A stretch of DNA of 42,771 nt, from positions 1 through 42,771 of IMG/VR virus record IMGVR_UViG_3300020472_000057. One strand, written 5' to 3'. This stretch comes from a virus. The notes under the pieces are model-generated. The model saw only the letters and a program-made list of their open reading frames with translations, was not told the origin of the DNA and made no database searches. The position numbers and the translations under genes are program-made. This document shows positions 7,034 to 38,468 of the stretch, one piece after another. How positions within the stretch are numbered: position 1 is the first letter of the stretch; each line of letters starts with the position of its first letter.

Positions 7034-10000
7034 TTAGGCAAGTGTAAGAACTCGTAAATTTTTGATTCTTGGAACAAATGCTTGATTAGTAGATGTCATA
7101 TCAAGTTTAATTCTAAATGATTTAAATGAAGGTATATTTTCAAGAGTGAATGTATATTCAATAAATTCAAGATTCTTAGGAATCAAAGTATCAGATTTTC
7201 CATCATTTTCAGCTGGATCAATAACTTGTCCGTGTCCATCTAAGTTACTATATCCTGGGAATGGATTAAATACTGGATCAAATCCTACATCCTCACTGAT
7301 AGCATAGAATGCTCTAATATCAGCAGTTTCGGGAACAGAAGCATCTACAATAATCTTAATTGAAGTTGCAGAAGTTTCTAACACATTTTCCTTAGAAATA
7401 TACTGACAAGAGTTAGGATCTTCACTAATAAGATCGACCCTACTATCAGTAATATAATTTGAAACCATATTGTCAACACGATTGGAAGTTAAAATCGCAC
7501 TAATTCTTTCCATATCAATGACAGGAGATAGGAAGGAATCTTGACTAGTAAGATTGATATTCATATTAAATGATCTATCACCAGGAAGAACAGTAATACC
7601 AGCATTATTAGTTTCATTAACTCTAGAAGCAATAATACGTGGAGAAGTTAAAGTGTTGTTTGCATTTAACGTAACATTCTCAACTTCTTGCTCTTCAAAT
7701 GGCGAATCAGTTCCATCTCCTGATCCATCATTAATACTTGTTCCACTAATTGTTTTAATTTTAGCACTGATACCAGTTCCAGGAACTGTAAGATTATGAA
7801 CATTTGGATAAATTGTTTCAAATGGCATGTTCTGAGTGGCATGAATATTAAATCCACCACTAGACTTAGTATCATTCATATAAAGTATTGGGAAACTTTC
7901 CGCACTACTTCTTCCAATACCTGCTTGTCCCATATTCAATTTAATATTATAAGAATCAAGAGTAAGTGGATTTGAAGTACTAACATCACTTAAGATATGA
8001 GTAGTATTAAATCTTCTCAAAGAAACTCCACCTAGTTCGTATTTGGTGGCATATTCACCCTTAATATAATCTCTAGATTCAGAAGAATCTATATTTCTTG
8101 TAATTCCTGTTAAACTATTTCCAGAAGTTCCTGTATAACTAATAATTTCATCGCCAATCTTAGCATATCCAGGATTGGACGAAGCAACAGAAACATTTTC
8201 AAAACTAGAGAAATTGCTACTATCATCAATTGATATTGCAGCTGTAGAACTAGTATTATATGGTAAAGATAATTTTGTTGGAATAATATCTGAATTTATC
8301 TTAGAAAGTGTTACTCTATTAGTCTCATGATGCATACCATGATTTTTATGATTAACAACGAAGTGTAATCCATCAGTAACAGCAGCAATTCCGCCACTAG
8401 CAACTCCAATACCTGGTTGACCAGAATTGTTTGCACCCCAATTCATTTCACTAGTAATACCAGTAATAGTATTAGTGTAAAGTATTGTATTAGCAACACC
8501 AACAGCAAAATCTCCCTGAACATTATCAAGAATCAATTGATTGGTAGATCCAAGAGATACCACAGATACTCTTCCATGCATACCAATACTTGTAGTAAAT
8601 CCAAGTACATCACCAACTTGATAACCAGTTCCTGATGTAGTAACAGTTGCAGAAGCCACTACATTACTAGAGACAACAACAGTTGCTTCCATTCCAGAAC
8701 CACTACCCGTTATATTAGTTAACCCTATACCAGTAAATGTACCATCAGTGTAACCAAATCCAGCATTTACAACTCCCATAGCTGCTATAGCACAACTACC
8801 TGCATATCCTACTAAATTACCTGTTGCATTGGATCCAGTTTGACTAATTGTAGTACCATTATTTAAACCAATATTGGCACTACTTAAAATCGATGACAAT
8901 CCAACTCTAATCTTTCTTGACTGAAGACTAATAGAATTTGGTTGTAATTGTGGAATCTGAGCATTTCCTTCACCAAGAATTGGACTATAAACTTCCACAC
9001 TACCTGAAGGTTCAAAGTCTGCTCTATTTAAAATAAACTTAAGATCTTCCCATTGACTAGGATTCCATGTAGAACCATTCTGAGATTTAAATAAAGATCC
9101 TAAAGATGGTTGCTGAGAAACAAATTCATCAGTTATAGTATCATTTTCACCAACTCTTGAAATCCAAACCTTATATTTAACTGAAGAAGATCTTAATACA
9201 ATGGCATAATCCGTATCACCTTGTAAGTAAACAGGTGATTTAAAAATAAACCTTGTTGCAACACTACCATCAGTAGAAGTTGTAATCTCATCAGCATCTT
9301 TATAAATCTGCGAGAACGGTAAAACAGTTGTTGTAGGCATTCCCGTTTGCATTGAACGAATTTCAAAAATAACAGGAATATTATTAGGATCTACATCAGA
9401 GAAATAAATATCACAACTAGTAACAAAGACACCTGTTGAGTCTGTTACAAAGAATGATTGTGCGAGTGGATCTCCACCTCTTCCTCTTCTTCCTCTTGCT
9501 CTTCTTCTATTTCTTCTATTGACCCTGTTATGAACACGACCTCGCCTTCTTCTCGCTGTTCTAGAAATTTCTACTTCTCTAGATGTAGTAGTAGTTTGAG
9601 TTGAAAGTGTTTCAGTATTTGTATCACGTCCAAGGAATTCTTCAGCATCCCTTCTTTCAATAGTATTAACATTCTCAACCTTAGCATTCCTTATAGAAAT
9701 GATTTGTTCTTGAACTGTTTTAAGAGTTCCTTTTGCTTCATAATTATCTTGCCCTATAGTATCTGCATCTTCAAGTTCATTAATATCACTATCAATAAAA
9801 GTAAATGTTTTTGTTCCTGTTGCCCATTTTGGATTATTACCAATATTTGGATTTGGAATAAAGAAACTTGCTAAAGCAGAAGAAGCATAATCAGAAATTA
9901 CTCTTTTATTAACAATCTTAGCCTCTGCACCAGAAGTTCCTCCTTTAAGGATCATTCCAGTTTTAATCCAACCGTAGAAATCACCTTGTGGTTGATTATC

Positions 10001-16328: not shown

Positions 16329-19300
16329 TTAAATGTTAAAGTCAGTAGAATAACTTCCTACTTTTAGAGATTTAACTCTCTTGAGTATTGGTCCTGTTTC
16401 AATTCCAGTAACACCATTTGAAGTATTAACTGTATATGCACGAGATACACTTCGATCATTAAGAAGAAGTTTACCCCAACTATATTCACCAAAGAACACG
16501 CTATAACCTAAACCAGTTAGTCCGTTAAGACTATTAACACTTACTACTACTTGAGTTAAAGTGGTTGAACCGTATCCTATTGCATCAGTACCAACACCAG
16601 TTGTATAATGAGCAACTCTATAGACATTATCTATGTAAGTAGTACCAACGCCTACAGCACCATTAATAGTATTTAGAGACGTTAATCCATGACCAACATT
16701 TGAATTGCGAACTAGGAAGAAATCACCAGTAGTTAATCCACATACTGCAGCTGCGGCAGGTTGTGTAACTGCAGATTCTTTTAACCAAGAATCAGAAGGA
16801 ATAACCATATCAAATACAAGACCCGTAGGAATACCAGCTAAAGTCGGTCTCCAATTGGTAGCGAGAGATGTAGTTCCTATTCCAGTAATAAGACCTTGAT
16901 CCCCTGCAAATGTAACTACAGTATTTGTCTCAGTCAAAGCAACAGGTGGTCCAATTAAAATAGGAGGTTCAGATCCGTGGAAATATCCAGTTGTACCAGC
17001 AGATGTAAGTGCTATTGAATTAACAGATCCATTAGCAATTGTAGCTGTTGCAGTTGCACTTTGAGTAGCTCCAAGTCCAGCCCGAGTTCCTACACCAACA
17101 GGAGTTCCAATTGTTACAGTAGGAGCACTTGTATATCCTTTACCACCACTCGTTATAGAAATAGTTGAAATTCCTCCACCTGTATTATCAGTTGGGATGT
17201 ACTGTGAAAGAACTATAGCAGTTGCATATGCTCCTACTCTTTCTGCGTTATTTACAATAATAATATCTTTCTGGAATTCTGTAGAAACCTTATTTTCTCT
17301 CTTATCATTAAAGAATGGTCTAGCATTATCAACATATGCAATAGTTGTTCCAATACCAACAGTTTGAGTTAGATATGCAGATGGGAAAAGAGTCGCTTTA
17401 TAAAGATCACGATCTTTAGTAACAATCTTTCCTTCAACAAATTTATCTTCAGTCTGTCTAGTCCATACAACTGGTCTATATTCGGTAGTCTCTTCCCATA
17501 CACCTGGTCCATCATATGAATCAGTATCAACAGCATTTGCAGAAGCAACTTCTACAACTGTTCTATCCTCTTCTTGTAACCAAGATTTTTGATCTAAACC
17601 TCTATTATATCCAAGTGTTAGTTCATCACCAATTTTAACTGTTTCAATAATATCTCTATCAACAACATCTGCTCCACCAGTTCCTCTATAGAATAAGAAC
17701 TTAATACTATCTTCTGCTTTAGGTGCTTCTGTAAATGATATTTTAGATCCACCACCAAATGTATATGATTCACCAGGAATCTGTAGAATATCATTAACAA
17801 AGATGAACAAACAATCTTGAACAGTTACAAGTGATCCTGGTTTGGATTGAATTGATAATGCTTCACCACCATTTGAAATTGGGAAAGTCTTTCTTTCACC
17901 ATCAAACAAACTGGAGAAATCATCAAGAACTTGAATTTGTCCCACAGACCATGCAGTAAATTCATCACTATCTACTTGAGTAACTGTAACTTGATATTCC
18001 TTAGTATCCACATAACTTGCTGTTGTTGGAATTCCAATAGATCCAGTTATAGGAAGAGTTAATATATGATTAACTCCATAACCATATCCCAAATTAGTAA
18101 GTTTAAAGTCTACTACAGTAGATCCTTGACTTACCACTACATCAGCCTTTGCACCTGAACCACCAGTACTAGGAGAATCTGAACTATATGAAAGAGGAAT
18201 ATTCTCATAAGAGAATGGTTCGTCAAATACAACCTTCATTCTTTGATCTATTCTTCCACCTCTTGCATAATTATGAGGTCTAGTTGAAATACCTGTATTA
18301 ACTTCAAATTCAGTAGGACTTAATACTCTTATAACTGTTGATCCAGGGAATGCCTTATCCTGACCACTTCCAGAGTTATTATTTCCTCTAGGAGCAATAA
18401 TTGCAGGTTGGGCGTATCCACCTGAAATATAATTGGTAGCAACTGTTGAAGTTCCAACATTAACTGTAAATTGAGTAGCACTAGCAACTCCAGCAACTAC
18501 CATTCCATCATACTTAGGATCACCCTTTCTAGGATATCTGTGTTGAGTAGCGTAACTATCTTTAGAACATGTAAATCTTAAAGAATCTGTTTGTATCTTA
18601 ATACTAGCAGCATCAGTTAATGTATGAGTACCTATCGATAACTTCATATCACCAGTGGTCTCATAATACGTAGCAGCAGAAACATCATGGAAACCAGTAA
18701 CTGATGCACCAACTTGAACAGTAATTGTACTACTTGTAGTAGCAGTAACAACCGTATTAATACCAGCTACAGGATCACTTGGACGAGGATATGCATGGTT
18801 ACTACCATACTGATCCATTTCACAAGCAAAGACGATAGAACTTGTTGCGATAGAAACAAGTTGATTTGCTTTCTGTATACCACCAGTTGTAGCACTTTGG
18901 AATGTATGAGCAGTTGTATTAGTAGAAGGTACTGTATTTAAAACTTGAATAGCAAATGTATTAGTACTTGTAGAAGCAATTCCCACCCAAGTACCACTTA
19001 ATGGGTCTGAAGATCTAGGATATGTCTTATTACCTGCACCATGTGTACAACTGAAAGTTACTGAATCGTCAGCAAGTTTAACAAAATCTCCAACTAAGAA
19101 TCCATGACCTGAAACAGTCAATGTCATAATACCAACTACTGGATCGTAAGTACCAGCAGTAGCAGTAGCAGTAGTTGGTGCTAATAATCCATGAGTTGTT
19201 CCTGCGCCACTAGTGCTAACACCAGCAATTGATAAAACTAGATTACCAGTAGTTGGATCATAAGTTGCATCAGTTGGAGTAAACTTAGTTCCACTAACTG

Positions 19301-22300
19301 CAGCAGTAACAGCATCATCATCGGCACGAACATATGCGTGAGAATAACCACCCCCTGTAACAAGAGCACTACCAGCAGCACCTACAAATCTATGAATATA
19401 TTGATCTCTAGCATATGCAGCACCTACATTAAGAGTTATTGTAGTAGAACTAGTTGAAGCAATTCCTACTGCTGTCTGATAATATGGATCAGTTGAACGA
19501 GGATATGCATGGTTAGTTGCATTATCATCTTTATTACATGTAAAGGTTATAGACTCATCAGCAAGTCTAACAGATTTACCAACCTGTAATCCATGTGTTC
19601 CAATTGTAAGAACCATATCACCTGTCTGATCATCATAAGATGCGTTAGTAGGTGTGTAATTAACAAGAGGTGATGCACCAACATTAACTGTAATTGTATT
19701 AGCTGTTTTAGCCGTAATAGCAGTTGCAATTCCTGCTACAGGATCACCAGCACGAGGATAAGCATGAGTAGTAGTACCACCATCCATTGCACAAGTAAAT
19801 GTGATAGCACCAGTAGCGAATGAAACTGTTTGAGATGTATTATATGAATGTCCAGCAATGGTCAATACCATATTACCTGTTGAAGGCGTATATGTAGCCG
19901 CAGTAGGTGTGAATGCTCCTACACCAGTTACAGTTACACCATTTGTAGTAGCACTATCAAACGTGTGTGCATAATTACCACCACTAACTACAGCATTAGA
20001 ATCAGCACTTACAAAAGTATGTTCATAACGATCACTTGGACCTCTAGCAGCAGTTACATTAACAGTTACTGTACCATCGTTATGAATCAATCCAGCTGTA
20101 GTTGCACTTACAAAGGTATGATCACTTGTATTTGTAGATGGTGCTGCAGAAGCAGTTCCTGTAGTACCAACACCCAAAACATTAACTTGGAATGTATTGG
20201 CAGTTACATTTGTAATTGGTAACCATTGTCCATAAACAACATCAGTAGTTCTTGGATAGGAATGATCAGTAGCATTTTCATCTTTAGCACATGTAAAGGT
20301 TAATGACTCTGGTTCAAATTTAACATTATCTAAATTGGAGAATCCATGACTGGCAACAGTAATTGTGGTTAAACCAGTTAATGGACTGTATAATGCATTT
20401 GTTACCGTATATGGTGTACCATCACTCTTAATACCAACCGAAGTATCATATACTTGGTCTCTATTTCTTGGATAAATGTGATTAATTGTAGCACCCAATC
20501 CACAAGTCATTGCAAGACCAGTTAATATAACATTGCTAGCCTTACCACTTGTCGATAGACCATGACCAACTGAAGTGGTAACGGTCATAATACCTGTGGT
20601 ATGAGTATAAACAGCACTCTGAATACCAACTGCTGCCGCATAATCACAAGTAAATGCGATTCCAGACATTACTACTTCATTACCGACTGATAAATCATGA
20701 GGTGTTGCAGTAGTAACAGTAGTTAATCCAGTTATAGAAGTATATCCAACGTTTCTAATATCTCTTGGTTTGTAGAAGAATTGTGGATTTGTAATTGTTA
20801 CTCCACTTACATGTCCATCAGAAACAGTAGCAGTACCAATACTAGTAATACCTGCTGGTCCGAAAGTTTCTGTATGAATACCAACAAAGACTGTTTGAAT
20901 TCCAGACCTATATCCAGACCCAGTATTTCCAATACTAATAGAATTAATTGTTCCTGCTAAAGATACAACTGCTGTACCACCTGCAGCAACTAATGGTTGA
21001 TAACCAAATCCTCTAGTAGATCCAACTGAAACAATAACACCACCAACAGGAATTGACGCAGTATTAACATCATATGAAACTGATGCTGCTGTTCCTGTAA
21101 ATGAAATTGAAGAAGCAGAACCAACTGTAGCCATAGTATAATCATAATTTGCACCTGGTCCTTGGAATACTCCATTAATTAAGACTATACCATTATTTGT
21201 AGCAATACCCGTTACATTTGCTTTATCAACTGTTAATGGGAATGTATCTCTATATCCATTAAATTGCTGAGTTATATCATCATAAAGATAATTTAATGAA
21301 TACGTTTCAGACGTTCCTCCAGTAACACCAGAACGAGTAAATACTCTTCCTTGGAAACTAGATGATGTTGTTATTCCAACCCAATCTCTGTCGTCAGGAG
21401 CAGCAGTAGATGTAGATAGTGGAGTCTTTCCATAAGGTGCTTCAATAAAGTGAATTCTATTATTGATAATATTATAATTTCCTCTAATCTTCTCAACATT
21501 TGTCCCTGCAGAATGGACTCCTAAATTTGTTCCTAACCAAGGTCTATTAACTTTAATTGCATTTGTAGAACCAATACCAACAGAAAGTACCTTCATAATT
21601 TCAGATGTACTTCCAGCAGCAACCCGAATATAATCAGCACCAAAGAATGATGTAATTCCTGCGAAATAAATTATATCTTCACCAAGAGGAACATGTTTAG
21701 CAAGAGTAGTTGTAACTGATGTACCAGCAATTGGTGATTGAATCATATTATCAATCCCAACCATTACTTTTGTATTTGCATCTTTAGCAATGAAAGTATG
21801 TGAGGTTCCAATTCCAACATGAGTAAGATCTAGTGGAACAGCAATTTCTTTTAATGCATCCTCTGCAGTTCTTGCAAGTTGAACTTTATCTTCTCCTTTC
21901 TTAATAATAAAGACAGAAGATGGCAAATAAGTTGTCGTGATTCCTAGAGCTGGGAATGAAGTTGATGCAATTCCAATAGCAGAAGAAATTCCAGTTCTTG
22001 CATCAGTATGACCATACGAAACTTCTTGTCCAGTAACAAAGAAATGATTTGATAATCTAATAGTATCAGCACTAACATCTATTATAGTTGCAGATGATCC
22101 ATCATATGGTTTTTCAAAGATTGGTTCTGTCTTATGCTGAAGATCAAAGTTTCTCTTAATTGCTACTTCAGTTCCTTCATATTCTGCATATCCACTTTCA
22201 ATAGAAGCATTACCCAAATCTTTAACTTGTTCTCCACCAACTTCTCTAGTTGCAGCAGCTGGTAATAGTTCAGTATTTTCTTCAACTCTAAGAACATTTA

Positions 22301-25300
22301 AGAATGTTGTAATTGAGACCCCAATTCCTGCATGAGGAACAAAAGTAAGTTCTGTTTGATTATCAGTAGTACGTCTTGCACTAATAGTACCTAATCCAGC
22401 AGTTGGGAATGCACCAGTACCAAGACCAGCAGGTCCAGTAGATGTATGTACATTTCCATACTCAGTCAACATTACATTACTTGCATCCGTATAGTCATCT
22501 ATAAAGATAACCTCTGCAAGTTCATAATGACCATTGATCTTATCTGCAATCTGAACCATGCAATATCCAGCATCATAAGCATCACTATAACTTGCAATAC
22601 CAACAGCAATTGGAGTAGCACTAGAACTAATACCAGTACTTTGAGCAGACATCTCACCGTGCTGCATATCATAAGAACCAATACCAATATATCCTTCAGT
22701 TGCTATACCAATAGCAATAGAATTAACATATGCAGTAGTAAGTCCAGCCTCAGGTGTATAAGTAACAATTAGATCGTTACCTGACATATAAGGCCAGAAG
22801 GTTCCAATATTTCCTACAGAAGAAGCAGCATCCTGAGAATGAATTGTTAATTGTCCATATTCTTGCCAACCAACATTAGTTCCATCATGAATTAGATTTA
22901 CCTGATCATATTCAACACTTCCATCACTACCCTCAACACTAACTAAAAGTTTAGCAGATCTTGTACCTGATGTTGTAGTTCCGATTCCTGCTAACGTATG
23001 AATGACCTTTGCTGCTCCTCCAGCGATTTCAACGTTAGTTGTAGCGATACTAACTAAAGACCCATTAAGACCATCTGTAGGGTTATATGGAGCACCTGGG
23101 ATGGTAGTACTACCAATACCTGCGGATCCTGTACCTGCTATAGAAGTAGTAAGTCCAAGTTGATTTGTATCAATATGATAAGACCATAATACAACGTTAT
23201 AATTGTTTAACTTATATTTGTGTGGATAAAAACGAAGAATAGATTCTGCACCATCAATTGCATAATCAAATTGTCCAAGATCAAGAACAGTATCAATAGC
23301 ACCATACTGATTAATCATAGTAAGTCCACGACCAGTATCATGCAATGTATTAACAAACATTACTTGTCGTTCACCCGTATATAATCTATCCTGAATATAT
23401 GCAAGGAACATCTGAGATCTACCATCAGCCAGACGTTGCCTATAAACATCTGCAAATGGAGTCGATCTTGGATTACTATTAAAGAGATTGCTAAAATCGT
23501 CAATAGTTACAACTCTATTAGAAACAGATTCTGCATAATCAGTTATAAGACGAGTTTTAAAATTAATCTCATCAGAATATCTACTTGACTCCAATCTTAA
23601 ATAATTCTCAGATGCTAAATCATAATTATTAACAGAATTTAAATTCTGAAGAGAAGTTATTTCTATTGTAGTATCGGTAGCAGTTGTAATTCCTGGACGA
23701 AGTGTATTAGATTTTGCTGAAGGAAGTTTTGATTCTACTTGAAGATCACTAAACTTTCTAAATCCAGCTGTATGATTCAAAGATCCTACAATATCTTTCC
23801 ATTCATCATATTGAACATGTGATTTAATAGCATAAGAGAAAGCATGATAGTATTCATTATCATGAACTCTCTGCAACTCATTATTTAATATTCCTGTATT
23901 ATATTCCCATCCATTTTCTACAACAGAATAATAATCAAAATTATACTTAGTTTCAAAACTAATTTGTTCCTTAATTAAACCCTTTGCTCCAGTAGGAGAT
24001 GAATACTGATTATCGGGCATTTTATTGCCACGGAATCTTACCTGTTCAATAACATCATCAACAACAAATTTATCAGCTGATTCTACTGTCAGATATTTAC
24101 TTGATTCATCCCATGAGAATACAGTTCCTTTTGCTCCCCCACTACTCTTTATATCATCACCTGGTCTAAATCTACTTGATTGTAATTTTACATCAAATTT
24201 AGGGAACCATTTTTCTGGTACCAATGAAGGAACAGAATTGATCGCATCCATTATACCTGGATATTCTACATTCTTGGCAAGATAATTTGCCATACTATAG
24301 GTTACAATTCCAAGACCACCATAATTTGGAGATACTTCAGATACAGTAAATAAAGCGTAATCATATTGAGATGAATTATATCCAAGAGCAGTAGAAGCAA
24401 TTCCAACACTTACATTCTCGACTAAGAATTTACTACCAACCTCAAATGGGAATGGATCGATATATGTCCCAGATTGGCCAACAACTCCACTAAATCCTTT
24501 CTTAAGAGTTACCGTTACTTCTTGAGTTGCATTATCATATGTAATATTTGAAGCCCTAACTCCATTAGGATTTCCAACAGGAATAATTGATGGTGTTGTA
24601 TTGTTTAAAGATTCTGAATTTTCAAGAACATCAACAACCTGTTCATCTGGATTATATCTCAAATCAACATCAGTAACTGGTTTATTAGTAACTCCATCAA
24701 GAACTACTAAACTTGGATCGGTATTATAACCTTGTCCAAAAGATGTAATACCAATATATTTAAATCCCGTGAGAGGTTCAATTCTTAATACTTGAGGTAA
24801 TACTGCAGTTGGTTCTAAAGTTTTATCAGAAGGATAATCAAATCCAATATTTTCAATAGTAACTCTTGAAACTTTTCCTATTGATTTACTAAAAGGTTCT
24901 ATTACAGCACCTGATCCTACTGCAGAATTAATAGTAGTAATTCCTGGTAAACTTAAATATCCTGAACCACCATCAAGAACTGTAATATCTTCAATTCTAC
25001 CATAAGCACTGGTAGAAATAGTTGCATATTGCAATTTGGAATCTGCACCAAGAGTATATGAAGATGCTTCTGGATACTCTTCTATATCATAAGTAAATGT
25101 TGTTGTTCCCGTTGAAATAATATTAAATTCGCCATTATACAAACTATCAGTAAATAATAATTGATTATTCAAATCAACATTATCATCTATAACAATCTCT
25201 TTATTAACCGTTAAATTTTCTTCTGTTGGAACTGGAGTTAACTTATAATAAAGAATATCTGGAGTATTCTCATTAACAGTTAGAGTTACCTTGGCATCTC

Positions 25301-28300
25301 CAGATACACCAATTGTACCAGTATTAGTAACATCAAATGTATCTGTTAATCCATTCGTAATATATTTTTGAGAAAAATTAGAATCTCTATAAAAATCTAA
25401 AGTAAATCCAGCAAAACTAGTTGAACTTTGTTCATATGATAAAGTTGAATCTGAAACATCAAATTCCACCTTCGAATTTCTATAGAATGTTAATGGAGGA
25501 TTAACTGGAGAAATAGTTCCTGCACCAGAAGAAGCAAGACTAACAAACTTAGGAAGTGGTCTAGTAGTCTCATACAGATTGTCAGTAAGTCTAAATTTAT
25601 TATTATCAATAACATACACATAATATTGCTGCTGATCTACCAAAGATGATACTGGATTATCACCAGATAAATGTATAACTGTTTGTCCTGTAGTTAACCT
25701 ATGATCATCAATTTGAATTGTATTCTGAAGACCTGAAGTAGAAGTATCAGTTTTAATTCCAGAAGTGGAGAATCCTAAAGGATTAGCAACTAATTTCCTA
25801 TTTGCTTTATTATACTTAATTGCTACACTAGTAGTAAGTCCTGGACTAACCTCAACAAATACCTTATCTTTAGTAGTCAATCCATGTGTGGCTACTCCAA
25901 CAACACTAACTATATTTTTATCTACAGATCCTTTTATAACTTCAGAATAATTAGTCTTAAGACTATGATATGATCCAATACCAGATCCTAAGAAATGAAG
26001 TAATCCAGAAGTAGATACACTAGAAGCAGCACCAATATAAGTTCCTGTAGAACCTAAACCAACTCTAACACTAGATAGACCAACAAAATCGTCAGTTAAT
26101 TTTGTTGCCCATAATTTTTGATATACAGAAAGAAGAGTTGTAGTTGGGGATGTAGCACCAATACCATGTTGATTATCGTTTGCTATACCTATAGATGCAC
26201 CATTTGTTTGGTTTATATGATATGTAATTTCGTCACCAGTCTGTAAGTTATGACTTGGAAGATAAATTGCTTGAGTTGGAATAAAGACTTGCGTAGCACC
26301 AGCACCTGGATTTGAAATTGGTACTGTTGTACCCAATCCAACTACAGTAGTACTACTATTAGCAAGACCAACAGCTTCTGATGGATTAAAATAATATTCA
26401 GTATTTGTTCTAGAGTTAAATGTAGTATTAATACCAACGTCAACAACAAATGATCTCGGTAGATCTTCTATACGAGTTGTTGAAGTATGCGATAAACCTA
26501 TAGGAGCAGTTACTCCAATATTATGAGTTCTTAAGACTCTTAATCTACTTGACTGTTTATCAATACTTAAAACCTTAACATTCTCTTCACTATTACCATA
26601 TCCAACCATTAAAATATCATTTGGTCGAATAAAGTTTATATTACCAGCTACTGGGAAGTAAGTAACAACACCTGTTGCTCCATCTGTAGATATTCCTTGA
26701 GTTAGAACTAATCTATTAGTACCAATTCCAATATTGTATTTTCCTTGAATTAAAGATGATGTAGTTGTTAAACCAGAAACCGTTACTAAAGCATTATTTA
26801 CATATCCAAAATTAGTTGTTGCAATTCCGACAAAACTATTACCTGTAGGATAAAATTCTACATTATCAAACTTTTGATTCGTTACACTTATTTCTGCTAT
26901 TCCTGGTCCAGATAGTTTAGTAACTTTAGCAGATACATTAGAAGTATTAATTATTTCATCATCAAAAACAAGTTTATCATTAATTTTATAAGAAACTCCA
27001 CCAGTAATAATTCCAACAGAATCTACTGATCCCTTTTCAGCATAATCAATAATAGAATCTTGTTTGACATAATCATAGGATTGCATAACATAATCATAAC
27101 CACTATAATCCTTGGCAAATCCATATGGATAACTATTTCGTCTCCAATTTGTTCTATTTAAATCATAATCTACTTGATTTGATAATCTACTAAAATTAAA
27201 ACTATTAGGTTTAGTATGATAAGAGTTTCCAATCAAATATGGGAAAACTGGTTGCTTATAATTTTTAAATACTCCTGCAGAAGATGGTGCTCCATCATAT
27301 GTTGCAAAATAAGCATATGTTCCCTTTGGAAATTCTGGAGTTACACAAAATCTTCCATTATTCTCATCAAGATATGATTCATCCGTTGATGATGTCCAAT
27401 TAAAATCTTCTACAAAAAATTCTGGCGGGAAGACTGATGTAGGTGGTCTATTTGCTCTACTAGTAGCTTGTTCAACATATCCAGATTTCATTTGAACTAC
27501 TGGACCACCAGTTTTATTCACATATCCATATGGACCATAAATTGGGTGTCCATCATAGGACCATCCAATAATAGGAGAATGAGAACCTGAACTTTGTTCT
27601 ACACCATTTATCAGACTTAAATCTTTCTTACCATATAAAACATTACCATCTCCATCAGTCTGATATAAAATCTTTCTTAAATTTCTTGGCGCATAAACAT
27701 ATGAACATTGAAGACCAAAATCCCTATTAACTGGCACAGAAATAAATGCATCATCTTCATTCAATATTGTTAAATTCTTTTTAAACTCATTGACTCTCCA
27801 AGATTGTATAGATGGTCTGAATTTAACTCCAGATCCTGATTCTACTACTTTAATAAAGGTATCTGAAGTTCCATAACCAATACCACTTTGCTGAATATTT
27901 ACAGAAATAATTGTACCTGCAGAATTCATCTGAGGAACTAATTTTGCATCAGAACCTATTCCAGAAACACTCAATAAAGGTGGAGAATTATAATCAGTAC
28001 CACCATAAGCAACACTAACATCAACAATTTTTCCTTTAGAAACAACTGGAGTTAGTACAGCATCTCTACCAGAATTTACACTAACATCAGGTGTCCTATG
28101 GAAGTTAAGAACCTCTGAGGCTCCATATCCAACTCCAGTTCTGGTAATATCAACACCTGTTATTTCACCCCTTACAATCGGTTGTAGAGTCGCCTCAAAG
28201 GTGTTTCCTGATATAGATGATATTCCAACAGTTCCATTAATTTCTACCGAAATAGAAGGATAGTTAAAAGTATGAGTTCCTACACCAATCGATCTCAAAT

Positions 28301-31300
28301 CTTGGAATTGGTTTGTCTTTAAATAAAAATCCTTTACAGTTGTTCCAACTCCTACAGTTGCTAATTTAAAAGAATCTTGATTTACAACGGAAATATAATA
28401 ATCTAACGAAGTTGAAAGACCATCAATTTCTGTTCCATCTACAGAATAACTAATAATCTCACCAGTCTCATATCCATGACTAGAAATTTCTATAGTATTA
28501 GATGCAGTATTAATTCCAGTTGTAGGACATGACTTTTGCCTATTTTCATATCCAGAACCTTTATTTGTTACTACAACAGAACTTACAACAGCTTTTCCTT
28601 TTAAGGATTTAAATGCTTGAACACCTGTACCAAAATTAGTTATTGATATTGTATTAAGACCAACAACAGCATCATTAAAATTCTCATGCAATTTTATAGT
28701 ATATTCAGTTTGTTTAGAAGCATAATATATTGCATCAGTGGATAACCCAACCAAAGGATTTCCTCCAGCATTATCATATACAACTCTTTCACCATCTCTA
28801 AATTTGTGGTAAGTAGTAAATCCAATAGAAGATGTATTAACACCAGCATTTGAATCTGTTACAGTTCCAATAGCTACTGTACCCAGACCAACTCCAGTAG
28901 CATTAAATCGAACCTCATGAGGAACAGTATTTAATTTAGCAACCGCAGTAGCATCTTTTCCATTACCACCACTAATTTTTATAGTAGGAACATCTAAATA
29001 ATCGAATCCAGAATCTATAATTCTAATATCCTCTATAGATCCATTAACTGAACAAGTTCCCGTTGCTCCAGTACCAACAGAATCATTAATAGACAAAACA
29101 GGTGGATTGATCACATCATAATTTTTTCCACCACTAATAACATCAATAGAATTTAAATTTCCATAATATACAAAATCTTTAGACTTATAATTTAAAACTT
29201 CTACACCATCTATCAGAATTCCATTATATCCAGGAAGTGTTTCATGTTTTTTCCCATCATGTACTGGTTTATAAACTTGCCTAAAAAGTTTTTGTGGTTC
29301 TATCTTTTTCTTATCAAAATTATACTTCTGAATATCATTAGAAGTAATAGTAACATCATTTAATCCATCAGATACTGATACTTGTGCAAAAATACCTGAA
29401 TATAAATCAGATGTACTTTTTGCAAATTTTACTATGTTTCCATTTACCCTTTTTACAAAATAAAGTCCTTCACCCCGATAATCTATTTGATTACCAAAGA
29501 GAGAACTCTCAATAACTTCCTGATTAACAATAGTACCGTCTGGAAGAGGTGTAACTATAACACTTTTCTGTGGTGTGTAATAAACAGCATCTCCAGTATA
29601 AAAATTATGATCAACTCCTGTTGTTATTTGTATTTCTTCAGTACCTGCAGCATAAGTTCCACTAAAAGTGTATTTTTGCAACCTTGGATCTAATTTAGTA
29701 AGTCCTGTATATGGTAATGATGATGATGCAACTAAAACCTTATCATTTTCAGTATAGATGTTCTGAATATTAGCTGTAATCTTATTTAAATTGTCATGGA
29801 TATTAGAATCTGCTTTAGAAATTGTTTTAGTTACTTTAGTAACTTGATTTGGGTCTCCGATACCCGTTCCTGTTATCAAACAAGTGCTTTTATCAAAAAC
29901 ATCAGTAACAGTATAATATTTTTTGGAAATTGGTCCAAAATCTGATGTTATAAGAGATCCCCATTGAGTTCCACTTATAACAGTCTCATGTGTCGTAACT
30001 TTATCACCAATTCTAAGAATATTACTATCTTCGGTAATTAATTTATAAGTATTATTAATAGAATCAACTAAAACTAAAGATTTTACAACATAACTTTGTG
30101 CAGTATTAAATAACCAATTATTTGCATTGACGGTATTACCAATTTCACCCAAAGATTTAATTTTTACCTTTGATCCCTTCCTTTGGTAGTAATTATTCTT
30201 AGGAAGTTCTAAATCATGTAAAACAGATCTTATTTTTACTCTTATTGGATTTGTAGATCCAACACCAACTGCATAAGCAAAAGTATCCTGATCTATGCTT
30301 GTTTTATCGCTAATTATATCATCAATTCCAGTTGTATTAATTCCTAAAAATTGATTTACAGTTTTATCAGCATATGTACATACTCCAGCCGTTCCATTCT
30401 CATAAGTAAAGGAAAGTGTTCCAGAATTAGGAAATCCTAAAGTGGAATCTACATCCATATAGGTTTGAGCAATACCGACTTGACCAATTACTCTAGTTTC
30501 CGCATTTACTGCAAACTTACCATATATTAATTCGGTAGATCCATCATTTTGGTTAAAAGAAGCATCAAGACTAAGTTTATAATATCTATTTGTTAAAACA
30601 CCAACATTAACTTGTTCTACAGCTGATATAGGAGCATATGCTTTTGATATATTTTCAAATTCATCTTGAAAAAGAGTCAAATTTTCCAAATCTTCGGGGT
30701 TTCCAAGGACTGGTTCTACAATAACATCTCTAGTTTTCTTAAAATTTGCATTGGAAGGTGAAATTACATTATCAATAGGACGAACAACACTAACCTGCTC
30801 TCCATATAGTGCTCCAAAGAGGATTTTGAAGGATTCTTCAGTTCCTCTAGTGGAGTAAAAGTCTTTAGATTGACGAATAAACTGTTTTTCGTTGATTTTT
30901 GGATCTAAGTCTTTTTGAAATCCATATAAAAACTGCCTTTTAATCTTTTTAAGAAATTCTTCTAAAAATAAGATACTTAAATTCTCTACAACAGATTCTT
31001 TTTCATGAATAGCTCTTTCAGAATTCGTAAAAACAAGATTTTCTGGATTAGAAGAGTTTGTAAAGGACGTAATACCACTAAATCCTCTAATACAGTCAAC
31101 AAAACTGATAGATGTCTTACTTGCATATGTAATAACCTCATCATTAATTTTTATTAGTCCCCAATTATCAGGAAACCCTTCAGTATTCTCAACAGCAATA
31201 GTCGTTTGATACTGATCTAACCAAGTATCATCTGCATTATCATCTACTTCATTTAATATTGTACTTTTTGTTATATCTCCACATTCACTTAATTTTATAT

Positions 31301-31460
31301 ATTGATCAATGTTCTGAATTAGATCTAAAGGACCACCTTTATACTCTTGTCCCAAATAATATTGAGATAAGAAATCACCAAGCAAAGGAAATTCATTCTG
31401 CACATACTCTGGCAGTTGATTCTTTACAATCTGATTAAATTGAACTCTCTTTTCTGTCAT
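16329..31460 (-). CDS. gp7: Giant baseplate wedge protein (gp7-like), 5043 aa
   Basis: 5043 aa, about five times T4 gp7 (1032 aa), in the gp7 slot between gp6 and gp8. Residues ~190-225 (KDFYSTRGTEESFKILFGAL then YGEQVSV) match the T4 gp7 segment DFYSTKGIEASYKFLFKVLY. Residues ~2515-2560 (YYHAFSYAIKS ... EWKDIVGSLNHTAGFRKF) match the T4 segment YYVMKIKS ... WKSDVIRFVHPVGFGF. In T4 these are under 200 residues apart. Between and after them lie expansions: GxGY repeats, a YHYH domain (~1298-1420), many VGIGTT segments, and seven units with the H-x-Y-P-R motif (~3660-4310). The C-terminus resumes cyanophage-type structural sequence. Likely the central wedge scaffold with surface decorations. Confidence 0.85.
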   Translation of the reverse strand: MTEKRVQFNQIVKNQLPEYVQNEFPLLGDFLSQYYLGQEYKGGPLDLIQNIDQYIKLSECGDITKSTILNEVDDNADDTWLDQYQTTIAVENTEGFPDNWGLIKINDEVITYASKTSISFVDCIRGFSGITSFTNSSNPENLVFTNSERAIHEKESVVENLSILFLEEFLKKIKRQFLYGFQKDLDPKINEKQFIRQSKDFYSTRGTEESFKILFGALYGEQVSVVRPIDNVISPSNANFKKTRDVIVEPVLGNPEDLENLTLFQDEFENISKAYAPISAVEQVNVGVLTNRYYKLSLDASFNQNDGSTELIYGKFAVNAETRVIGQVGIAQTYMDVDSTLGFPNSGTLSFTYENGTAGVCTYADKTVNQFLGINTTGIDDIISDKTSIDQDTFAYAVGVGSTNPIRVKIRSVLHDLELPKNNYYQRKGSKVKIKSLGEIGNTVNANNWLFNTAQSYVVKSLVLVDSINNTYKLITEDSNILRIGDKVTTHETVISGTQWGSLITSDFGPISKKYYTVTDVFDKSTCLITGTGIGDPNQVTKVTKTISKADSNIHDNLNKITANIQNIYTENDKVLVASSSLPYTGLTKLDPRLQKYTFSGTYAAGTEEIQITTGVDHNFYTGDAVYYTPQKSVIVTPLPDGTIVNQEVIESSLFGNQIDYRGEGLYFVKRVNGNIVKFAKSTSDLYSGIFAQVSVSDGLNDVTITSNDIQKYNFDKKKIEPQKLFRQVYKPVHDGKKHETLPGYNGILIDGVEVLNYKSKDFVYYGNLNSIDVISGGKNYDVINPPVLSINDSVGTGATGTCSVNGSIEDIRIIDSGFDYLDVPTIKISGGNGKDATAVAKLNTVPHEVRFNATGVGLGTVAIGTVTDSNAGVNTSSIGFTTYHKFRDGERVVYDNAGGNPLVGLSTDAIYYASKQTEYTIKLHENFNDAVVGLNTISITNFGTGVQAFKSLKGKAVVSSVVVTNKGSGYENRQKSCPTTGINTASNTIEISSHGYETGEIISYSVDGTEIDGLSTSLDYYISVVNQDSFKLATVGVGTTVKDFYLKTNQFQDLRSIGVGTHTFNYPSISVEINGTVGISSISGNTFEATLQPIVRGEITGVDITRTGVGYGASEVLNFHRTPDVSVNSGRDAVLTPVVSKGKIVDVSVAYGGTDYNSPPLLSVSGIGSDAKLVPQMNSAGTIISVNIQQSGIGYGTSDTFIKVVESGSGVKFRPSIQSWRVNEFKKNLTILNEDDAFISVPVNRDFGLQCSYVYAPRNLRKILYQTDGDGNVLYGKKDLSLINGVEQSSGSHSPIIGWSYDGHPIYGPYGYVNKTGGPVVQMKSGYVEQATSRANRPPTSVFPPEFFVEDFNWTSSTDESYLDENNGRFCVTPEFPKGTYAYFATYDGAPSSAGVFKNYKQPVFPYLIGNSYHTKPNSFNFSRLSNQVDYDLNRTNWRRNSYPYGFAKDYSGYDYVMQSYDYVKQDSIIDYAEKGSVDSVGIITGGVSYKINDKLVFDDEIINTSNVSAKVTKLSGPGIAEISVTNQKFDNVEFYPTGNSFVGIATTNFGYVNNALVTVSGLTTTSSLIQGKYNIGIGTNRLVLTQGISTDGATGVVTYFPVAGNINFIRPNDILMVGYGNSEENVKVLSIDKQSSRLRVLRTHNIGVTAPIGLSHTSTTRIEDLPRSFVVDVGINTTFNSRTNTEYYFNPSEAVGLANSSTTVVGLGTTVPISNPGAGATQVFIPTQAIYLPSHNLQTGDEITYHINQTNGASIGIANDNQHGIGATSPTTTLLSVYQKLWATKLTDDFVGLSSVRVGLGSTGTYIGAASSVSTSGLLHFLGSGIGSYHSLKTNYSEVIKGSVDKNIVSVVGVATHGLTTKDKVFVEVSPGLTTSVAIKYNKANRKLVANPLGFSTSGIKTDTSTSGLQNTIQIDDHRLTTGQTVIHLSGDNPVSSLVDQQQYYVYVIDNNKFRLTDNLYETTRPLPKFVSLASSGAGTISPVNPPLTFYRNSKVEFDVSDSTLSYEQSSTSFAGFTLDFYRDSNFSQKYITNGLTDTFDVTNTGTIGVSGDAKVTLTVNENTPDILYYKLTPVPTEENLTVNKEIVIDDNVDLNNQLLFTDSLYNGEFNIISTGTTTFTYDIEEYPEASSYTLGADSKLQYATISTSAYGRIEDITVLDGGSGYLSLPGITTINSAVGSGAVIEPFSKSIGKVSRVTIENIGFDYPSDKTLEPTAVLPQVLRIEPLTGFKYIGITSFGQGYNTDPSLVVLDGVTNKPVTDVDLRYNPDEQVVDVLENSESLNNTTPSIIPVGNPNGVRASNITYDNATQEVTVTLKKGFSGVVGQSGTYIDPFPFEVGSKFLVENVSVGIASTALGYNSSQYDYALFTVSEVSPNYGGLGIVTYSMANYLAKNVEYPGIMDAINSVPSLVPEKWFPKFDVKLQSSRFRPGDDIKSSGGAKGTVFSWDESSKYLTVESADKFVVDDVIEQVRFRGNKMPDNQYSSPTGAKGLIKEQISFETKYNFDYYSVVENGWEYNTGILNNELQRVHDNEYYHAFSYAIKSHVQYDEWKDIVGSLNHTAGFRKFSDLQVESKLPSAKSNTLRPGITTATDTTIEITSLQNLNSVNNYDLASENYLRLESSRYSDEINFKTRLITDYAESVSNRVVTIDDFSNLFNSNPRSTPFADVYRQRLADGRSQMFLAYIQDRLYTGERQVMFVNTLHDTGRGLTMINQYGAIDTVLDLGQFDYAIDGAESILRFYPHKYKLNNYNVVLWSYHIDTNQLGLTTSIAGTGSAGIGSTTIPGAPYNPTDGLNGSLVSIATTNVEIAGGAAKVIHTLAGIGTTTSGTRSAKLLVSVEGSDGSVEYDQVNLIHDGTNVGWQEYGQLTIHSQDAASSVGNIGTFWPYMSGNDLIVTYTPEAGLTTAYVNSIAIGIATEGYIGIGSYDMQHGEMSAQSTGISSSATPIAVGIASYSDAYDAGYCMVQIADKINGHYELAEVIFIDDYTDASNVMLTEYGNVHTSTGPAGLGTGAFPTAGLGTISARRTTDNQTELTFVPHAGIGVSITTFLNVLRVEENTELLPAAATREVGGEQVKDLGNASIESGYAEYEGTEVAIKRNFDLQHKTEPIFEKPYDGSSATIIDVSADTIRLSNHFFVTGQEVSYGHTDARTGISSAIGIASTSFPALGITTTYLPSSVFIIKKGEDKVQLARTAEDALKEIAVPLDLTHVGIGTSHTFIAKDANTKVMVGIDNMIQSPIAGTSVTTTLAKHVPLGEDIIYFAGITSFFGADYIRVAAGSTSEIMKVLSVGIGSTNAIKVNRPWLGTNLGVHSAGTNVEKIRGNYNIINNRIHFIEAPYGKTPLSTSTAAPDDRDWVGITTSSSFQGRVFTRSGVTGGTSETYSLNYLYDDITQQFNGYRDTFPLTVDKANVTGIATNNGIVLINGVFQGPGANYDYTMATVGSASSISFTGTAASVSYDVNTASIPVGGVIVSVGSTRGFGYQPLVAAGGTAVVSLAGTINSISIGNTGSGYRSGIQTVFVGIHTETFGPAGITSIGTATVSDGHVSGVTITNPQFFYKPRDIRNVGYTSITGLTTVTTATPHDLSVGNEVVMSGIAFTCDYAAAVGIQSAVYTHTTGIMTVTTSVGHGLSTSGKASNVILTGLAMTCGLGATINHIYPRNRDQVYDTSVGIKSDGTPYTVTNALYSPLTGLTTITVASHGFSNLDNVKFEPESLTFTCAKDENATDHSYPRTTDVVYGQWLPITNVTANTFQVNVLGVGTTGTASAAPSTNTSDHTFVSATTAGLIHNDGTVTVNVTAARGPSDRYEHTFVSADSNAVVSGGNYAHTFDSATTNGVTVTGVGAFTPTAATYTPSTGNMVLTIAGHSYNTSQTVSFATGAITFTCAMDGGTTTHAYPRAGDPVAGIATAITAKTANTITVNVGASPLVNYTPTNASYDDQTGDMVLTIGTHGLQVGKSVRLADESITFTCNKDDNATNHAYPRSTDPYYQTAVGIASTSSTTITLNVGAAYARDQYIHRFVGAAGSALVTGGGYSHAYVRADDDAVTAAVSGTKFTPTDATYDPTTGNLVLSIAGVSTSGAGTTHGLLAPTTATATAGTYDPVVGIMTLTVSGHGFLVGDFVKLADDSVTFSCTHGAGNKTYPRSSDPLSGTWVGIASTSTNTFAIQVLNTVPSTNTTAHTFQSATTGGIQKANQLVSIATSSIVFACEMDQYGSNHAYPRPSDPVAGINTVVTATTSSTITVQVGASVTGFHDVSAATYYETTGDMKLSIGTHTLTDAASIKIQTDSLRFTCSKDSYATQHRYPRKGDPKYDGMVVAGVASATQFTVNVGTSTVATNYISGGYAQPAIIAPRGNNNSGSGQDKAFPGSTVIRVLSPTEFEVNTGISTRPHNYARGGRIDQRMKVVFDEPFSYENIPLSYSSDSPSTGGSGAKADVVVSQGSTVVDFKLTNLGYGYGVNHILTLPITGSIGIPTTASYVDTKEYQVTVTQVDSDEFTAWSVGQIQVLDDFSSLFDGERKTFPISNGGEALSIQSKPGSLVTVQDCLFIFVNDILQIPGESYTFGGGSKISFTEAPKAEDSIKFLFYRGTGGADVVDRDIIETVKIGDELTLGYNRGLDQKSWLQEEDRTVVEVASANAVDTDSYDGPGVWEETTEYRPVVWTRQTEDKFVEGKIVTKDRDLYKATLFPSAYLTQTVGIGTTIAYVDNARPFFNDKRENKVSTEFQKDIIIVNNAERVGAYATAIVLSQYIPTDNTGGGISTISITSGGKGYTSAPTVTIGTPVGVGTRAGLGATQSATATATIANGSVNSIALTSAGTTGYFHGSEPPILIGPPVALTETNTVVTFAGDQGLITGIGTTSLATNWRPTLAGIPTGLVFDMVIPSDSWLKESAVTQPAAAAVCGLTTGDFFLVRNSNVGHGLTSLNTINGAVGVGTTYIDNVYRVAHYTTGVGTDAIGYGSTTLTQVVVSVNSLNGLTGLGYSVFFGEYSWGKLLLNDRSVSRAYTVNTSNGVTGIETGPILKRVKSLKVGSYSTDFNI
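18531..20475 (-). repeat. Seven-copy C...H-x-Y-P-R coding repeat array in gp7-like protein
   Basis: YPR triplets lie near 18531, 18783, 19013, 19499, 19752, 20253 and 20464, giving units of about 210-250 bp or their double. Typical units read F-T-C-x-K-D-(7-9 residues)-H-x-Y-P-R-x-x-D-P, preceded by a strand such as 'GDMVLTIGTHGL' and followed by 'TITVNVG'. A second recurrent unit, H-T-F-x-S-A-T-T, alternates with them. The single Cys and His per unit are kept in most copies; in the copy reading HGAGNKTYPR the His before Y is replaced. Confidence 0.8.
27215..27575 (-). other. YHYH domain within the gp7-like protein
   Basis: The protein here reads GWSYDGHPIYGPYGY, then LDENNGR and TPEFPKGTYAYFATYDG, then FPYLIGNSY. 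This order matches the YHYH domain (WSYDGxPIYGP; LDExNGR; TPExPxGTYxYFxT). The family is found in secreted bacterial and eukaryotic proteins and as a module of phage structural proteins; its activity is not established. The YHYF/YHYH core appears here as YAYF, so the family's namesake His residues are not conserved. Confidence 0.75.
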
Positions 31461-36405: not shown

Positions 36406-36434
36406 ATTATAACATATATGCAGGAGAGTGTCAA
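36406..36434 (-). promoter_or_regulatory. Consensus sigma-70 promoter upstream of desaturase, inside dyads
   Basis: TTGACA (36429-36434), a 17-bp spacer, TATAAT (36406-36411). The -35 falls in the loop of a 10-bp dyad (TGCAGGGGAG with CTCTCCTGCA, 36419-36428 and 36438-36447, one G-T pair). A wider pair, AACTGTGCAG (36377-36386) and CTGCACAGTT (36443-36452), flanks the whole promoter. Such nesting suggests an operator, though no repressor is identifiable. Confidence 0.8.
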
Positions 36435-36460
36435 TAACTCCCCTGCACAGTTGTTGTTAC

Positions 36461-36842: not shown

Positions 36843-36871
36843 ATTATAGGATAGATTCCTTATACTGTCAA
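36843..36871 (-). promoter_or_regulatory. Consensus sigma-70 promoter, minus strand
   Basis: TTGACA (36866-36871), exactly 17 bp, TATAAT (36843-36848): a perfect match to the bacterial housekeeping consensus. It drives the 57-aa and 34-aa genes. It is divergent to the plus-strand promoter whose -35 starts 37 bp away. ACCCCC (36883-36888) and GGGGGT (36904-36909) form a 6-bp dyad between the two. Confidence 0.85.
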
Positions 36872-36908
36872 GTTTTATGTTCACCCCCACAAAATATAAC
36901 TGAGGGGG

Positions 36909-36938
36909 TTGACATTAACAGCGAGATTGTGATATAAT
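36909..36938 (+). promoter_or_regulatory. Consensus sigma-70 promoter, plus strand, no gene downstream
   Basis: TTGACA (36909-36914), an 18-bp spacer, TATAAT (36933-36938). It is the only promoter I found that reads rightward in a window whose genes all read leftward. It points into the iteron and TTTTCCACA region and then antisense to the tiny genes beyond. A non-coding or origin-priming transcript is the best guess. Confidence 0.75.
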
Positions 36939-36970
36939 GCTCGCTAAGATAACAACACTGAGAGACATTA

Positions 36971-37036
36971 ATTCCACAGATTACAATGTCTTTATTAACA
37001 TTTATTCCACTGATTAACTCTCCTTTATTAACACCC
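36971..37036. repeat. Two tandem 33-bp iterons
   Basis: Units 36971-37003 and 37004-37036 align without gaps: both begin ATTCCAC-w-GATTA, and both contain C then TTTATTAACA at the same offset (23 of 33 positions identical). They lie between the rightward promoter and the TTTTCCACA boxes. The arrangement resembles replication-origin iterons; the initiator is unknown. Confidence 0.65.
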
Positions 37037-37037
37037 T

Positions 37038-37144
37038 TGTGGAAAAGTATAAAACACGTGGGTATATTTATAAGGGCATTTTGAAAGGCATTTAATATAC
37101 TTTTCCACAGATTTACCCCTATAACTAACAATAACTGTGGAAAA
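37038..37144. other. Cluster of three TTTTCCACA (DnaA-box-like) sites with inverted repeat
   Basis: Exact TTTTCCACA at 37038-37046 (minus), 37101-37109 (plus) and 37136-37144 (minus). The first two lie in a perfect 13-bp inverted repeat, GTGGAAAAGTATA (37039-37051) with TATACTTTTCCAC (37096-37108), 44 bp apart across an AT-rich centre. TTTTCCACA is the DnaA-box form described for cyanobacterial origins. No credible gene covers 36807-37164, so this is read as a candidate replication origin or control site. Confidence 0.55.
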
Positions 37145-37164
37145 CTTAGATAATACATAAGCAC

Positions 37165-38104: not shown

Positions 38105-38133
38105 AAAAAGAGGTTGGGTGTTATGCAACCTCT
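38105..38133 (-). terminator. Intrinsic terminator spanning a stop codon
   Basis: AGAGGTTG (38126-38133, minus) pairs perfectly with CAACCTCT (38109-38116) around a 9-base loop that contains the stop codon of the 115-aa gene; T5 follows (38105-38109). A textbook intrinsic terminator. Confidence 0.8.
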
Positions 38134-38468
38134 AAGGAATGTGTATCTAATAGTATCATTCCATCAATGAAATCTGTAGTGGTTCCATGATAACTAACGA
38201 ACCATTCAAATTTCTTTTGGAATACTTTGCAACCATACTTAACCTCTTCTAAAATTGCATTTAAGCGAGATTTTGTAGTGTTTGTTTCATAACCACATGA
38301 GTCTAATTTGACTGCGTTGGTGTTATGATCAAGGGTTGCAATTTGATGACCATGTAGATAAACAGAAGAGCAATTTGTTGAATCATTGTAAGAAACAGAG
38401 GTGTTAGATCCTGCCCAGTTGCCCTTATTGGAAAGAGCGAAATTCATTTGCTTTTCAAGTTTTCTCAT
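38121..38468 (-). CDS. Conserved cyanophage protein of unknown function, 115 aa
   Basis: 115 aa. Core pattern: RKLEKQMNFAL, then 'VYLHGHQIATLD', then 'DSCGYETNTTKSRLNAILEEV', then VFQKKFEWFV. I recall the combination 'LHGHxIA ... CGWxTxTTKSRLNAIL ... VFQKxxxW' from small proteins of many T4-like cyanophages, where function is unassigned. The TTKSRLN helix with neighbouring His and Cys could bind nucleic acid, but this is inference. It lies behind a copy of the 34-bp element and ends in a terminator that overlaps its stop, making a self-contained cassette. Confidence 0.8.
   Translation of the reverse strand: MRKLEKQMNFALSNKGNWAGSNTSVSYNDSTNCSSVYLHGHQIATLDHNTNAVKLDSCGYETNTTKSRLNAILEEVKYGCKVFQKKFEWFVSYHGTTTDFIDGMILLDTHSLEVA

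Follow-up and report, generated by a model that had tools for sequence, protein, structure and literature searches.

T4-like cyanophages are very abundant, and for the start of their replication a single prediction is available, for Syn9. The current study asks whether a short element carried by one such phage could be a replication origin, as a first-pass annotation had proposed from its sequence. The element lies within a 42.8-kb fragment (hereafter the window, i.e., the whole stretch of DNA that was analyzed) from a T4-like cyanophage (Kyanoviridae). This assignment was already made in the annotation and proved correct: the gp6 of the window is 65% identical to that of Synechococcus phage S-SM2 and 62-64% identical to those of SynMITS9220M01, Bellamy, and the single-cell virus AG-345-E15, while tail, baseplate, connector, and terminase PHROGs are found in the left 34 kb. 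Since many related viruses share the element's arrangement of promoter, boxes, and AT-rich DNA, it is probably a site at which the virus begins to copy its DNA, with the help of the host initiator protein.

Promoter, leader, and AT-rich block

The element occupies a gene-poor gap, with a phrog_12516 gene to its left and a Kyano_Gp96 gene (phrog_554, 38121-38468) to its right. The former borders the element and is leftward, with a divergent, perfect sigma70-like promoter (36843-36871, minus strand) that is visible in S-SM2 and SynMITS9220M01 as well. A rightward sigma70-like promoter, TTGACA-18-TATAAT with an extended -10 (TG), is located at 36909-36938 (plus strand). It had been described as a consensus promoter with no gene behind it, and this is accurate: it matches the consensus at 12 of 12 positions and no plus-strand ORF of at least 60 aa begins behind it. 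On the minus strand, ORF 36868-37164 was rejected as a gene because, in 33 of the 35 element sequences, every one of the six frames is broken by stops; the window is one of the two exceptions. This ORF has no Pfam match, and no coding frame is conserved in the element across the 35 sequences. None of the scanned neighboring genes matched a Rep family, no Rfam family reached its gathering score in the window, and no tRNA was found.

The surroundings have peculiarities of their own. A fatty acid desaturase gene (PF00487; 35398-36177, minus strand) adjoins the element, with relatives in one Pelagibacter phage and two Acinetobacter phage records and copies of about 50% identity in two IMG/VR contigs. 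A third perfect promoter, TTGACA-17-TATAAT, is found at 36406-36449 (minus strand) inside and after a strong terminator-like hairpin, an arrangement resembling the fusion of a terminator with the next promoter. Directly after gp6 lies a giant ORF of 5043 aa (16329-31460, minus strand), in the position held in SynMITS9220M01 by a 12.2-kb 'baseplate wedge initiator' gene.

Promoter and leader are widely shared. In the homologous gap of S-SM2, SynMITS9220M01, and Bellamy, the same rightward promoter is followed by the leader CGCTWAGATMACWACNC......ACATT and, further on, by an AT-rich block. In the window, alignment and a box-free pattern search place the conserved start of the putative non-coding transcript, CGCTAAGATAACAACACTGAGAGACATTAA, at 36942-36971 (plus strand). 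The box-free leader pattern alone matched 61 viral contigs, which are not phylogenetically independent events and which formed 35 clusters once near duplicates were grouped by shared 8-mers rather than by tree. The rightward promoter is conserved in these 35 clusters and in named phages, and the arrangement of promoter, box, and AT block is kept far beyond the window's phage. No recognizable element was found in six of 20 named phages (P-SSM4, P-HM1, RN05-S, B23, S-RSM4, and S-SKS1); P-SSM4 and S-SKS1 gave only weak, unconvincing model matches, and nothing convincing as an element lies beside Kyano_Gp96 in S-SKS1, RN05-S, or S-RSM4. P-SSM2 has a diverged copy, seen by eye only.

An inverted repeat, GCGAG-N14-CTCGC, spans the -10 of the rightward promoter at 36921-36944 and is kept in the alignment of many relatives. 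It is operator-like and a possible candidate site for a phage or host regulator. At the predicted transcript start, the composition of the 35 relatives switches sharply, with G dropping from 27% to 12% and A/C rising for about 150 nt. As the most stable R-loops are G-rich and the predicted transcript is A/C-rich, a G-rich, R-loop-favoring RNA was ruled out.

The AT-rich block, GTATAAAACACGTGGGTATATTTATAAGGGCATTTTGAAAGGCATTTAATATAC, is a candidate unwinding element at 37047-37100, and a homologous block is kept in relatives. In S-SM2, Bellamy, and SynMITS9220M01, this homologous block falls within the top 0.03-0.06% of 60-mers by AT content; it is far more extreme there than in the window, where the block is only moderately unstable. 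The earlier proposal of an AT-rich core between two repeat arms holds as to composition; this core is, however, not exceptional in the window, where the least stable 40-mer near the element (top 2%) starts at 37120, outside the arms. A promoter with an AT-rich candidate unwinding element downstream, the layout of a T4-type origin, is present in any case, with a moderate block in the window itself. Inside the block at 37065-37072 (minus strand) is a leftward motif, TATAAATA, which we take to be a candidate T4-type late promoter from the T4 late promoter consensus. Just to the right of the block, a GC-rich hairpin fronted by an A-run can be seen in S-SM2 (L006, about 7940-7975), L030, L043, L024, and others, but not in the window itself. 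On the opposite strand, this hairpin reads as a terminator-like structure that would halt leftward early transcription before the element.

Boxes of the cyanobacterial DnaA type

Three exact copies of the DnaA-type box TTTTCCACA are located at 37038-37046 (minus strand; the inner box, adjoining the AT block), 37101-37109 (plus strand), and 37136-37144 (minus strand; the outer box, with equivalents in L016, L047, L056, and L186). As reported previously, these sites are real; they are the only ones in the 42.8 kb and all fall within 107 bp, whereas 0.76 would be expected per window and 3 of 100 shuffles reach three window-wide. The first two form the left and right arms of a perfect inverted repeat (37038-37051/37096-37109, arms 44 bp apart), which is 14 bp in length instead of the 13 bp given earlier. 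This arm length occurred in 0 of 200 shuffles of the 236-bp region. The two 33-bp tandem repeats reported alongside the boxes also exist (36965-36997 and 36998-37030, plus strand), with 76% identity, a value not reached in 200 shuffles, and each has a degenerate DnaA box (AATTCCACA at 36970-36978 and TATTCCACT at 37003-37011). To call them iterons was generous, since there are only two copies, whereas iteron plasmid origins have at least three regularly spaced direct repeats. No such repeat is seen in the aligned relatives, and it was dropped as a conserved feature.

Among the relatives, no other 9-mer is as widespread in the 260 bp downstream of the leader as TTTTCCACA, which is present in 17 of the 35 clusters, with at least two copies in 15 of them. 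A first-order Markov model yields a mean of 0.22 clusters and a maximum of 2, while control stretches of the same contigs contain the box in 4 of 964 cases. One-mismatch boxes are likewise in excess in the box-bearing clusters (18 vs. about 3 expected), and their mismatches fall at positions 1-3 (16) or 6 (2) and never at 4, 5, or 7-9, which leaves the CCACA core otherwise intact. The aligned consensus of the box class reads TTTTCCACA..TTTTTCAACAACATTGTGGAAAACGTATAAA..ATATATTTATAA.ACCATTT and exhibits a nearly fixed distance from inner box to AT block, much like that of a bacterial oriC. When box-bearing elements are compared pairwise, 74 of the 114 boxes that align are kept, as against 15% of other 9-mers, although this figure is biased because both members of each pair were chosen for having a box.

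The same is evident among 20 named Kyanoviridae, seven of which have a tight pair or triplet of boxes (S-SM2, P-TIM68, Syn9, S-PM2, Syn33, S-SSM5, and S-SM1), with one cluster in each genome. When the nine letters are permuted, 0.2-0.6% of the resulting 9-mers pair up in this way in a given genome, and T4 has no tight pair. In six of the seven (S-SM2, Syn9, S-PM2, Syn33, S-SSM5, and S-SM1), the cluster follows a recognizable GCTAAG...AC(A/C)(C/T)T leader. In P-TIM68, the inverted box pair shares the gene-free gap with the promoter but lies upstream of it (L189, about 2645-2667). Many relatives lack boxes, as might be expected of chance or neutral sequence. However, the numbers of clusters and controls, the retention of aligned boxes (subject to the bias just mentioned), and the single tight cluster found in each of several distant genera make this explanation very unlikely on present data, and we give it next to no weight. 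Host-type DnaA boxes had been considered unusual for a T4-like phage. Within this group, they are not, since seven of the 20 named genomes have paired boxes and 17 of the 35 environmental clusters have boxes.

The element group splits into two classes, with and without boxes. The 18 box-less clusters have no exact box and one near box in total. At the same place, TTCTCAA is present in 8 of the 18 and AGTWACTC in 10 of the 18, and neither occurs in any of the 17 box clusters. The first-pass annotation had regarded conservation in related phages as a check on the boxes, and the result is divided: the distant Syn9 and S-PM2 have boxes, whereas SynMITS9220M01 and Bellamy keep the flanks without any box in the element. 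The boxes consequently look like a replaceable cassette instead of an invariant part. The alternate motifs could also be taken as a sign that several binding proteins exist, in which case the boxes might be read by a phage-encoded protein that shares the DnaA-box sequence by chance. We consider this improbable, as the boxes are exactly identical to the host DnaA box, their variants follow the DnaA-box pattern, and the phages encode no DnaA-like domain, at least within a search that covered the DnaA C-terminal domain.

Host DnaA is a more natural candidate. The identification of TTTTCCACA as the cyanobacterial form of the DnaA box is well founded, as it matches the published box of most cyanobacteria, which has experimental support in Cyanothece and Anabaena (PMC4674748), and as the phage variants spare the CCACA core. 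The DnaA C-terminal domain was detected in control genomes and in none of the 20 Kyanoviridae genomes, which makes host DnaA the natural reader of the boxes and the presumed protein bound there. Of 244 genomes from the cyanobacterial phylum, 35 have triple direct TTTTCCACA clusters; none of the smallest genomes do, so host boxes were examined upstream of dnaN instead. Among nine picocyanobacterium-like genomes, picked by small size and a match to phage psbA, one has three exact boxes at this location, two have one, and six have variants or none. With this mixed result, the box fits the phylum and some, though not all, of the likely hosts. The phage element has a box cluster matching the host consensus, as in DnaA-type origins, with the consensus taken from the published one (PMC4674748) and the host genomes giving a mixed picture; its AT-rich candidate unwinding element adjoins the boxes as in such origins as well. 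DnaA dependence also varies among cyanobacteria, with DnaA being dispensable in some (PMC7198777).

Two further explanations retain the host protein or the promoter while dispensing with an origin. In one, the promoter would yield an early leader or non-coding RNA, and DnaA would regulate its transcription as a roadblock or repressor. The strongly conserved transcript start, the operator-like repeat over the -10, and the boxes downstream of the start site are all compatible with this, and folding of the first 110 nt is slightly better than that of shuffled sequence (mean -10.0 vs. -8.1; 25 of 35). However, the boxes occur in both orientations, which argues for DNA sites rather than RNA motifs, the downstream region is otherwise not conserved as RNA and matches no Rfam family, and the extreme AT block beside the box would be left unexplained. 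We regard this as a minor and rather unlikely contender. In the other, the boxes would be a decoy that soaks up or traps host DnaA and thereby stops initiation of the host chromosome, the promoter and AT block belonging to something else. DnaA titration sites such as datA are known in E. coli, and a decoy would suit phages that lack their own DnaA and gather their boxes in one place per genome. Even so, 2-4 boxes per genome would absorb little DnaA before phage replication, a decoy has no need of a fixed box position relative to the conserved leader and AT block, and box-less relatives retain the leader and AT frame. A decoy is therefore an unlikely explanation.

A candidate origin with a proposed role for host DnaA

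T4 replication begins without a host initiator. At T4 oriF (ori uvsY) and oriG (ori 34), a promoter precedes a downstream unwinding element, and the transcript persists as an R-loop that primes leading-strand synthesis (PMC3016281, PMC4412123). Like these origins, the element of the cyanophages combines a promoter with an AT-rich candidate unwinding element downstream, spans about 100-200 bp, and belongs to a T4-type phage whose replisome is also T4-type (PMC3016281, PMC2984593); the replisome genes are conserved in the cyanophage group (PMC2984593). It differs in that T4 uses a MotA middle promoter and has no DnaA boxes, whereas the cyanophages have a host-type -35/-10 promoter, with TTGACA standing where T4 origins use the MotA box, together with host DnaA boxes; an R-loop would have to be supposed by analogy. 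T4 oriE also has repeated short sites (12-nt iterons) in its origin region, retained at syntenic positions in close relatives (PMC3016281). These iterons are evenly spaced direct repeats without a known reader, whereas the cyanophage sites point both ways and are identical to the host DnaA box.

The boxes find their closest parallel in the oriC beside dnaN of Synechococcus elongatus, Anabaena, and Cyanothece, where several TTTTCCACA boxes adjoin an AT-rich stretch (PMC4674748). Unlike oriC, the phage element is found on a lytic phage, has its own promoter, adjoins neither dnaN nor dnaA, and contains few boxes. The origins of P1 (oriR), pSC101, and F combine host DnaA boxes with iterons that serve a Rep protein of their own. 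Like the phage element, they belong to extrachromosomal replicons and place host DnaA boxes beside an AT-rich region, whereas the cyanophage element has no known Rep. Searches of the open-access literature turned up no account of DnaA boxes in cyanophages. The origin site itself may already be suspected, as the account in PMC2984593 cites Weigele et al. (2007) for a single predicted theta origin in Syn9. One origin per genome is thus predicted for a phage that has the present element at about 52.6 kb, and the two might be the same site. The element lies at 19.2 kb in S-PM2 and at 49.3 kb in S-SSM5.

GC skew had been suggested as another check, and it does not mark the site. The skew shifts at 36-37 kb in the window, but five complete genomes (S-SM2, Bellamy, SynMITS9220M01, Syn9, and S-PM2) have no extreme at the element. 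As the shift was not reproduced, it was dropped as evidence and rejected as an origin marker, although GC skew is a weak criterion for circularly permuted phages that replicate by recombination.

From the observed sequence, conservation, clustering, and position of the element, we infer the following scheme. Early in infection, host RNA polymerase would transcribe rightward from the conserved promoter through the short conserved leader into the region of boxes and AT-rich DNA. Host DnaA would bind the TTTTCCACA boxes that adjoin and surround the AT block, as happens at a bacterial oriC, and help the block to open. By analogy with T4 oriF and oriG, the opened and transcribed block would expose single strands and an RNA 3' end, where the T4-type replisome of the phage could start. 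Later, late-mode transcription, including that directed leftward from TATAAATA within the block, might shut the site off. The initiator-site cassette would be exchangeable, given that about half of the relatives keep the promoter, leader, and AT block without a box. Several findings count against an origin: the absence of boxes from several named phages and from 18 of the 35 clusters, the GC skew, the moderate AT core of the window, the A/C-rich predicted transcript, exact dnaN boxes in only some picocyanobacterium-like genomes, and the dispensability of DnaA in some cyanobacteria (PMC7198777). Nevertheless, the most economical reading appears to be an origin that is assisted by transcription, opens with the help of host DnaA, and serves the phage replisome. 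We assign a probability of roughly 0.55 to the element being a replication-initiation site common to many T4-like cyanophages, one that would combine the promoter and unwinding element logic of T4 with an oriC-like cassette of DnaA boxes recruiting host DnaA.

A broader suggestion, which we offer only tentatively, is that the origin of these lytic phages is modular. The promoter-leader and the AT-rich unwinding block would be constant, and the initiator-site cassettes combined with them would be interchangeable, consisting of host DnaA boxes in roughly half the lineages and of other motifs (TTCTCAA or AGTWACTC) in others, and possibly tracking the initiator of the host or its DnaA dependence. 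In the cultured phages Syn9, S-PM2, S-SSM5, and S-SM2, the element is one precise site per genome that is open to direct tests. If host DnaA is indeed recruited to a transcription-coupled phage origin, then these phages would depend for their DNA synthesis on a host factor that is more important in some cyanobacteria than in others.
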